Below the pieces are notes generated by a model. The model was given only the letters and a program-made list of their open reading frames with translations, did no database searches and was not told where the DNA came from. The position numbers and the translations under genes are program-made. DNA of 45,602 nucleotides from Oscillospiraceae bacterium (GTDB lineage: Bacteria > Bacillota > Clostridia > Oscillospirales > Ruminococcaceae), in the NCBI GenBank assembly GCA_022508965.1, contig JAFLUD010000006.1, positions 1 through 45,602 of the forward strand. The letters run 5' to 3'. Shown piece by piece: positions 9,579 through 37,674 of the stretch (positions are counted from its first letter, which is position 1; each line of letters opens with the position of its first letter).

Positions 9579-9607
9579 TTGACAACGGGGTGTTTCTCGA
9601 CTATAAT
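9579..9607 (+). promoter_or_regulatory. Promoter of the Ser-rich lipoprotein gene
   Basis: Perfect TTGACA (9579-9584), 17-base spacer, perfect TATAAT (9602-9607). Confidence 0.88.
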
Positions 9608-9641
9608 ATTATTAACAAATATTTTTCGGGAGGTATACATA

Positions 9642-10325
9642 ATGAAAAAAATTACGGCGATTTTTCTTGCGGCTGTCATGACTCTGTCGCTGGCAGGGTG
9701 CGCTACCAAAGAAGGAACGAGCAGCGATCTGTCCGATTCTTCTTCCTCGACTACCTCGTCTAGCAAATCAAGCAGCAAGTCTTCGAGCTCTTCCGAGTTC
9801 CCCGAGGAACCTGCGGAAAGCTCCACTGTGAGCACTCCGGAGGAGTCTTCGAGCAGCAGTTCGAGCACAAGCTCCGAAGCTCCCAAGCCCGCGGAGCAAA
9901 GCACGACCACATCGTCGTCGGTTCCCGAAAGCAGCAGCAAACAGTCAAGCTCGACTGTTCCAAAAGATCCGCAGAGCAGTTCTCAGTCGACTGCAAGCAG
10001 CACGAAGTCAAGCTCCAGTGTTCCCGCAAAAGATCCCGAGCCTGCTGTAAGCGACGACACCGTTCGCCCGGAGGTAAAGTTACTTACGGAGCAGTACATA
10101 AAGGTCGTTGAGAAGATGATCGAGTTCTCGGAGAAATACGAGGGCTATGAAGCCGATGATATCCCCGAGGAGGCTAAGCAGGAGGCGGAAAAGCTCGCGG
10201 GACAGTTTTTGGGCGTTGTATTTGGACTTGCGTCGCTTGGCGAAGTGACTCCCGCCGAAGAAGAATACATGAATAAGGCTCTCGAGCCGTATAAGGATAA
10301 GCTGGAACAAATGGAAAACACATAA
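9642..10325 (+). CDS. Ser-rich lipoprotein of unknown function
   Basis: A 227-residue secreted lipoprotein. The signal sequence MKKITAIFLAAVMTLSLAGC ends in a lipobox (LAGC, Cys20). A ~110-residue linker of Ser, Thr, Glu and Pro runs to about residue 135, followed by a small mostly helical acidic domain (about 140-227) that I do not recognise. ATG 9642 has GGGAGG at 9628-9633; an upstream in-frame start at 9579 would lie on the promoter and is rejected. The linker would hold the C-terminal domain away from the membrane, through the wall. It is followed at once by structured element copy 1 and a terminator. Confidence 0.85.
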   Translation: MKKITAIFLAAVMTLSLAGCATKEGTSSDLSDSSSSTTSSSKSSSKSSSSSEFPEEPAESSTVSTPEESSSSSSSTSSEAPKPAEQSTTTSSSVPESSSKQSSSTVPKDPQSSSQSTASSTKSSSSVPAKDPEPAVSDDTVRPEVKLLTEQYIKVVEKMIEFSEKYEGYEADDIPEEAKQEAEKLAGQFLGVVFGLASLGEVTPAEEEYMNKALEPYKDKLEQMENT

Positions 10326-10431
10326 AAGACTTCCGATAAGCCCTCATCTACTTCGTCAGCCGCATCTCGGCAGCCACAACGGCTAGCCGAGACGCGGCTT
10401 CCTTGTATCTGAGGGCTTCTCGGAAGTCTTT
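10325..10431 (+). ncRNA. Structured element, copy 1 (candidate RNA)
   Basis: A long bulged hairpin. P1 AAAGACTTCCGA (10325-10336) with TCGGAAGTCTTT (10420-10431), a T/C mismatch, P2 AAGCCCTCA (10338-10346) with TGAGGGCTT (10410-10418), an 11/10-base internal loop, then P3 AGCCGC (10358-10363) with GCGGCT (10394-10399), TCTCGGC (10365-10371) with GCCGAGA (10386-10392), AGCC with GGCT, and an ACAAC loop. Copy 2 at 37528-37632 keeps the shape with compensatory changes. It starts at the stop codon of the lipoprotein gene and is followed by a terminator, so it would be part of that mRNA's 3' end. The orientation of function is not proven. Confidence 0.7.
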
Positions 10432-37461: not shown

Positions 37462-37490
37462 TTGACTTTTTGTGCGTTTAGTTTTATAAT
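37462..37490 (+). promoter_or_regulatory. Promoter of the tetR-type gene and its leader element
   Basis: TTGACT (37462-37467), 17-base spacer, perfect TATAAT (37485-37490). Transcription would start near 37497, so structured element copy 2 lies wholly in the 5' leader. Confidence 0.8.
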
Positions 37491-37527
37491 GTAAATGAGC
37501 GGTATTAATTCACAGTCGTGAAATTTC

Positions 37528-37632
37528 CGGACTGCCGATAAACCCTCATCTTCGTTGTCAGCCACACCACGGCAGTCAAATTGCCTAGCCGTGGCGCGGC
37601 TTCCCGGAATCTGAGGGCTTCTCGGCAGTCTG
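37528..37632 (+). ncRNA. Structured element, copy 2, in the TetR-gene leader
   Basis: Same architecture as 10325-10431. P1 CGGACTGCCGA (37528-37538) with TCGGCAGTCTG (37622-37632); T/C mismatch kept; P2 AAACCCTCA (37540-37548) with TGAGGGCTT (37612-37620), one A/C mismatch; internal loop of 11 and 10 bases as in copy 1; P3 AGCC with GGCT and CCACGGC (37567-37573) with GCCGTGG (37588-37594). Pair changes relative to copy 1 are compensatory at T-A to G-C in P1, and T-A to C-G and T-A to A-T in P3. It lies between the promoter and the regulator gene. Confidence 0.7.
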
Positions 37633-37674
37633 TGGACACATTAAAATACTTTTTTGAAAGGACGGGAATCTGTC

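Follow-up and report, generated by a model that had tools for sequence, protein, structure and literature searches.

Two hairpin elements in the window and their surroundings

The window analysed here is a stretch of 45,602 nucleotides (contig JAFLUD010000006.1 of assembly GCA_022508965.1, from an Oscillospiraceae bacterium), and it contains two copies of a hairpin element. The minus-strand reading of the window elements is referred to below as F, and R1 denotes a covariance model made from 26 copies of the own genome (G000). The features of the two loci are as follows.

9579..10325, plus: ORF upstream of copy 1, without a Pfam match, reaching the edge of that copy with its stop codon
10324..10431, minus (F): copy 1, hairpin element, R1 match of 121.9 bits
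10420..10431, minus: copy 1, 5' arm of P1, partner 10325-10336
10325..10336, minus: copy 1, 3' arm of P1
10419/10337: copy 1, G.A mismatch between P1 and P2
10410..10418, minus: copy 1, 5' arm of P2, partner 10338-10346
10400..10409, minus: copy 1, conserved 5' strand of the internal loop, GATACAAGGA on F
10347..10357, minus: copy 1, conserved 3' strand of the internal loop, GACGAAGTAGA on F
10358..10399, minus: copy 1, P3 stem with a single-base bulge (10385) and apical P4
10443..10468, plus: terminator-like hairpin downstream of copy 1
37462..37490, plus: promoter-like TTGACT-17-TATAAT upstream of copy 2, which would place copy 2 in a 5' leader
37526..37633, minus: copy 2, hairpin element, R1 match of 106.4 bits
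37654..38265, plus: TetR-type regulator gene downstream of copy 2

Both copies, which a preliminary description had placed here with one shared architecture, were found again in the sequence and by folding. Inward of P1 each has a 1x1 mismatch, then a 9-bp P2 and an internal loop with strands of 10 and 11 nt. The loop lengths given in that description are therefore correct, but the loops contain pairs and are not fully open: on the minus strand they run through GA/GA, 3 bp, NN versus NNN, one G-C pair and again GA/GA before P3 begins. For P1, described there as 11-12 bp, the minus strand shows 12 bp in copy 1 and 9 contiguous bp in copy 2. The folding z-scores for the plus and minus strands were -11.6 and -12.0 in copy 1, and -6.9 and -9.3 in copy 2, with 0/200 shuffles as good in either case, and for both copies the lower folding energy is that of the minus strand. 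The strand read in the preliminary description was the wrong one, and it is on the minus strand that the conserved loops make sense as RNA. The element had not been recognised there and a comparison with Rfam was proposed; no family of Rfam 15 reached its gathering threshold, either in the window or in 20 cross-phylum loci. The best of the weak sub-threshold matches for copy 1 were mir-3937 (27.8/84 bits) and Hrs13 (25.3/52), and a further search at loose E-values gave none.

Copy 2 is located between a strong promoter-like sequence and the TetR gene, and, judging from the flanking features, transcription through either window copy would yield the complement of F. The transcription units next to them run in the opposite sense to F in both cases, and a dedicated regulatory role at these two sites is therefore improbable. 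Of 81 elements in a wider set (80 loci), 65 fall outside ORFs called mechanically with a minimum of 80 aa. The element is often found immediately at a gene end. Antisense gene ends at the 3' side of F number 27 versus 6 sense ends at its 5' side, but this is no clean orientation effect, because the 5' leader carried by some copies shifts the distance on the 5' side. There was no general orientation bias of the elements to genes in the 80 loci or in the five groups examined, and this lends no support to transcription of F.

Copy number, paired changes and strand selection in the genus

BLAST of the own genome yielded 33 matches, one of them being copy 1 against its own opposite strand, and R1 gave 79 two-strand matches that merge into 48 distinct places, 30 of which score at least 90 bits. 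A covariance-model search of related genomes, likewise suggested in the preliminary description, was productive: R1 had matches in 36 of 61 genomes, the own genome included. This count covers 37 genomes of the genus, of which 36 have a match (the exception being G035), and 24 genomes from other families of the order, none of which has one; six further genus genomes lie outside it. The elements are about 105-140 bp long. Since the genomes are mostly metagenome assemblies, the copy numbers are probably lower bounds and the absence of a gene from a genome is not certain.

The compensatory stem changes noted earlier between the two window copies are part of a very strong covariation, seen both in the own genome and across phyla (see below). 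In the own-genome alignment 94.0% of the cells are paired and two-sided changes occur in 23 of 43 pairs; the two-sided cells number 119 compared with 36.1 in shuffles, and 0/500 shuffles reached any of five measures.

If such a hairpin were decaying merely as double-stranded DNA, then GU and AC combinations should become equal in number. On F, however, the GU:AC ratio is 60:18 in the 26 own-genome copies from BLAST, and in 81 genus copies it is 60:4 in P2, 38:13 in P1 and 83:5 in P3, versus 57:79 in flanking control columns. The filter by which the 81 copies were obtained treats G-U and A-C alike, and an earlier filter favouring G-U had given 58:3, 36:7 and 81:3 for P2, P1 and P3, respectively; a relaxed pattern hit ordinary coding sequence 3 times in own-genome loci, and these hits are removed by the pairing filter. 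In pattern hits that were not chosen by pairing, the P2 ratio is 103:11 for the 69 loci that lie outside the genus and 23:1 for the 30 that are genus-like. The ratios outside the genus of 50:40 in P1 and 25:40 in P3 lend no support to a bias in these stems there, and that for P3 is given no weight, because P3 is not in gap-free register in these loci. The inequality of GU and AC indicates that, in the inner stems at least, F acts in single-stranded form. Further, a gap-free and model-free test identified covarying bases inside the internal loop (T/AAC and G/GAA). Both these bases and the fact that wobble pairs are tolerated favour RNA over single-stranded DNA, and we lean, by a modest degree, towards the folded F strand being RNA. 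The preliminary reading of the element as an RNA is upheld insofar as the strand-specific wobble signal fits RNA best; it does not extend to an RNA function as such, and single-stranded DNA keeps a considerable share of the probability.

A bias in replication strand was also considered, as it could point to single-stranded DNA. In the single-contig genomes G140, G178 and G317, F is on the lagging strand in 23 of 25 copies, or in 21 of 23 if the two copies placed by skew are left aside. However, this is not counted as evidence for replication coupling, because the two exceptions adjoin antisense gene ends and five groups are without bias.

A stand-alone structured RNA family (an sRNA or a cis-regulator) that merely happens to be multi-copy, the reading put forward in the preliminary description, would account for the very strong covariation, the one-strand wobble bias and the covarying bases in the internal loop. 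However, the insertion polymorphism and target duplications described in the next section speak against it, as do the lack of a fixed orientation to genes and the antisense position of both window copies, and we regard this explanation as improbable.

Empty sites, target duplications and the search for a mobilising enzyme

In one compared region of about 3.6-3.9 kb the genomes G002, G005, G007 and G010 share about 92% identity, and orthologous sites with and without the element can be compared among them. At one site in G005 (L228) the element lies between two copies of ATAGAATAG, whereas the same site in G002 and G010 (L231, L232) has a single ATAGAATAG and no element. At a second G005 site (L266) a terminator hairpin is present on both flanks of the element, and in G007, G010 and G002 (L289, L290 and L291) that hairpin is present once. 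Target duplications in the genus are either of 6-9 bp or consist of whole terminator-like hairpins of 16-29 bp. At a score of at least 7 they are seen in 23 of 79 genus copies (the window's own two copies not being among the 23) versus 13 of 231 mismatched pairings, and at a score of at least 10 in 7 of 36 genus loci from the species collection versus 0/143; these seven comprise five whole hairpins of 22-29 bp, one 16-bp palindrome and one non-palindromic duplication. Of 36 genus loci, 9 have a hairpin that starts exactly at the 3' boundary, versus 0/36 in the offset control. In the own genome a 9 bp duplication is present at L068, and at L083 (G000:C94, about 1316-1422) most of a 25-bp hairpin is, by eye, duplicated. 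The earlier reading against a repeat is not supported, the element being a dispersed mobile repeat which has empty sites and target-site duplications, and the choice then offered between a selected RNA and a mobile repeat fails, as the element is structured as well as mobile.

Around the orthologues of both window genes (29 other loci surveyed per gene, some broken at contig ends), R1 gave three weaker matches, viz. at the 5' side of the TetR gene on the opposite strand (L240), at the 3' side of the TetR gene (L237), and at the 5' side of the other window gene (L228). A same-strand copy at the window site was present in none of the surveyed orthologue loci.

We consider it quite probable that these sequences form a family of small non-autonomous mobile elements, each a near-complete hairpin with a conserved two-loop core, in which F is the selected strand and which are moved in trans. 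The enzyme acting in trans would make staggered cuts; where a cruciform can extrude from the target, the cut may fall at the base of the terminator hairpin, and the folded F strand may be recognised by the mobilising enzyme or by a cellular factor. The proposed mechanism reaches only as far as staggered cuts in trans, because none of the four enzyme families searched for, RVT_1, Y1_Tnp, DDE_Tnp_1 and Transposase_mut, was found in G000, G005, G007 and G010 (completeness 90% for G000 and 96-99% for the other three), while G002 was searched for DDE_Tnp_1 and Transposase_mut alone. None of the four tracks the element in its distribution. Glycine cleavage enzymes, a MatE transporter and D-Ala ligase are among the products of the eight ORFs around three clustered copies (G140, L671), all of which belong to ordinary families.

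If the element were an ordinary MITE, that is, a deletion relic of an insertion sequence on whose double-stranded terminal inverted repeats a normal transposase acts, then its hairpin would be incidental. With MITEs it shares its short length, no need for an ORF, dozens of copies mostly between genes, target-site duplications (of variable length, and in the genus only) and terminal inverted repeats, these being the P1 arms or, in the G002/G005/G007/G010 clade, inverted-repeat-like ends formed by a leader CAGACTGTATAAAAAGTC and the other end CAGACTGTATATAAAGCC. The 5' leader which completes these repeats is common in that clade, and in the own genome it is seen, by eye, in two copies only (L068 and L085). 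However, double-stranded recognition leaves the GU:AC bias unexplained, and likewise the constancy of the loops where arms differ between clades. The element further differs from MITEs in that its core loops are conserved across phyla while its arms are exchanged by paired changes, one strand is selected, and its variable-length duplications include whole terminator-like hairpins. No cognate transposase was found either, DDE_Tnp_1 and Transposase_mut having no match in the four genomes named above, and several element-rich genomes of the genus are without Transposase_mut. The matches to Transposase_mut and to the element number 20 and 1 in G021 and 9 and 3 in G016, but 6 and 16 in G004. An ordinary MITE is a possibility to be taken seriously, although the less likely one. 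The element, both structured and mobile, is a variant of the small palindromic mobile repeats, the nearest known kind being MITE/REP-like palindromic repeats, and its membership among MITEs is partial.

The palindromic, intergenic and dispersed nature of the copies and their single selected strand would also suit a REP-like element that is moved as single-stranded DNA by a Y1 (RAYT) transposase, and REP/BIME sequences are likewise extragenic imperfect hairpins of high copy number. However, the element is several times longer than a REP, and Y1_Tnp, which has one match each in G006 and G035, was not found in most of the element-rich genomes searched or in any of G000, G005, G007, G010, G034 and G014. 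REPs with a RAYT carry a GTAG/GGAG-type tetranucleotide at the foot of the hairpin, and staggered target duplications are not expected of Y1 chemistry. We regard this reading as very improbable. Integron attC sites are defined by RYYYAAC/GTTRRRY boxes and a nearby integrase, and the target duplications argue against this reading as well.

A SINE-like retroposon copied from F-strand RNA would be in keeping with target duplications of variable length and with an RNA-like selection of the strand. However, RVT_1 was not found in G006 and G034 either, though very diverged reverse transcriptases could be missed, and one match each was found in the element-rich G014 and in G035, which lacks the element. 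The same result bears on a group II or retron-type element, for which the cell would likewise have to supply a reverse transcriptase. No series of 5' truncations was noticed. A SINE-like origin appears improbable to us.

Occurrence beyond the genus and related repeats

Turning again to the element as a structured mobile repeat, a pattern of its loops alone was found in at least 114 stretches of a species-genome collection, where about 1 is expected by chance as estimated from pattern length and collection size. The records among the matches listed include Desulfobacterota-type bacteria, Melainabacteria, Negativicutes, Bdellovibrio, Peregrinibacteria and others, and most of them fold alike. Carriers named as isolates include Selenomonas sp. 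AE3005 and Anaerospora hongkongensis. Once hits whose flanks were short or whose flank pairs recurred had been dropped, 79 of 99 distinct hits have pairs at no fewer than 10 of the 15 arm positions compared without gaps, against 22.5% for shuffled arms. Gap-free pairing fails in the other 20 hits, of which 13 are Melainabacteria rows, and those inspected among the latter fold with a shifted register. The hits in Treponema (L170) and Alphaproteobacteria (L194), where gap-free pairing also fails, are probably chance matches of the pattern.

R1, although made from the own genome only, gave 73 matches at E<=1 (68 at <=0.01) in 72 of the 114 loci; these loci were pre-selected by the loop pattern, and the matches are nearly all outside the genus. 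L090, L095, L170, L179 and L192 are among the pattern loci without an R1 match. In the cross-phylum alignment 89.0% of the cells are paired and two-sided changes occur in 39 of 43 pairs, with a score of 0.581 versus 0.135, the alignment being fitted to the model. A second model, R2, matched in 16 of 398 own-phylum genomes and in 9 of 267 genera, at most 8 candidates being scored per genome. The distribution of the element is thus wide but patchy, and its outer arms vary by clade while the core loops are constant. The window element had no match in phages, three elements had none in plasmids, and the loop pattern gave 0 hits in viral contigs. Outside the genus the target duplications are weak (1/71 versus 2/280 at score 7 with no leader allowed, and 9/71 versus 11/210 with a leader allowed), and boundary hairpins occur there in 1/71 versus 4/71 in the control.

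Small palindromic repeats are usually treated as insertion-sequence debris confined to one lineage. In this case, gut Clostridia share with Desulfobacterota-type and Melainabacteria genomes one folded core, in which the loops are kept and the stems are swapped pairwise, and the empty sites indicate that it has moved recently in the genus. Such a pattern calls for a partner, cellular or mobile, that these genomes have in common, and it offers a direct route by which to look for one. Insertions that duplicate a terminator-like hairpin in its entirety follow an unusual target rule, which is open to testing at the bench. A bolder reading, viz. that of a cross-phylum, SINE-like class of bacterial elements in which a structured RNA of ~105 nt directs its own spread, targeting and duplicating whole terminator hairpins by a kind of enzyme not yet tied to small repeats, appears unlikely.

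No description of the element was found in the open-licence full text of PMC, and an earlier sighting is possible among multicopy Geobacter sequences. A widespread hairpin repeat, ATTGCGAGGAGC...GACGAAGCAAT (or ATTGCGAGGAGC...GACGAAGCAATC), matches the element by eye in how its inner loop is arranged (GC-GA-G-GA / GA-C-GAA-GC) and is present in at least 120 IMG/VR stretches (L455-L574) of viral-contig records. However, this repeat is much shorter than the element, R2 had no match to it at E<=1 in 12 loci scanned, and it had no Rfam match in 10 loci scanned. BOX, RUP and SPRITE, of which SPRITE is terminator-like, are described for Streptococcus pneumoniae as small intergenic repeats whose transcripts fold (PMC10969869), and by this description they resemble the element.

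Several minor observations concern individual loci. The element at L083 is flanked by near-identical terminator-like hairpins (ACCCCC..GGGGGTT), as in other species. At one terminator, the elements of L267 (G005 C15) and L292 (G010 C6) are in opposite orientation, which may reflect an inversion or more than one use of the site. In L300 and L301 (G007 and G010), compared with the orthologous L270 (G005), extra hairpin-like sequence is present inside both P3 arms, as if another repeat had inserted. A second dispersed repeat, GGGTTGCGGGGGCGGTAGCCCCC...CTACCCCC (query 2160-2316, from L275), is present in G002, G005, G007 and G010, with dozens of copies among the matches listed, most of them in G002.
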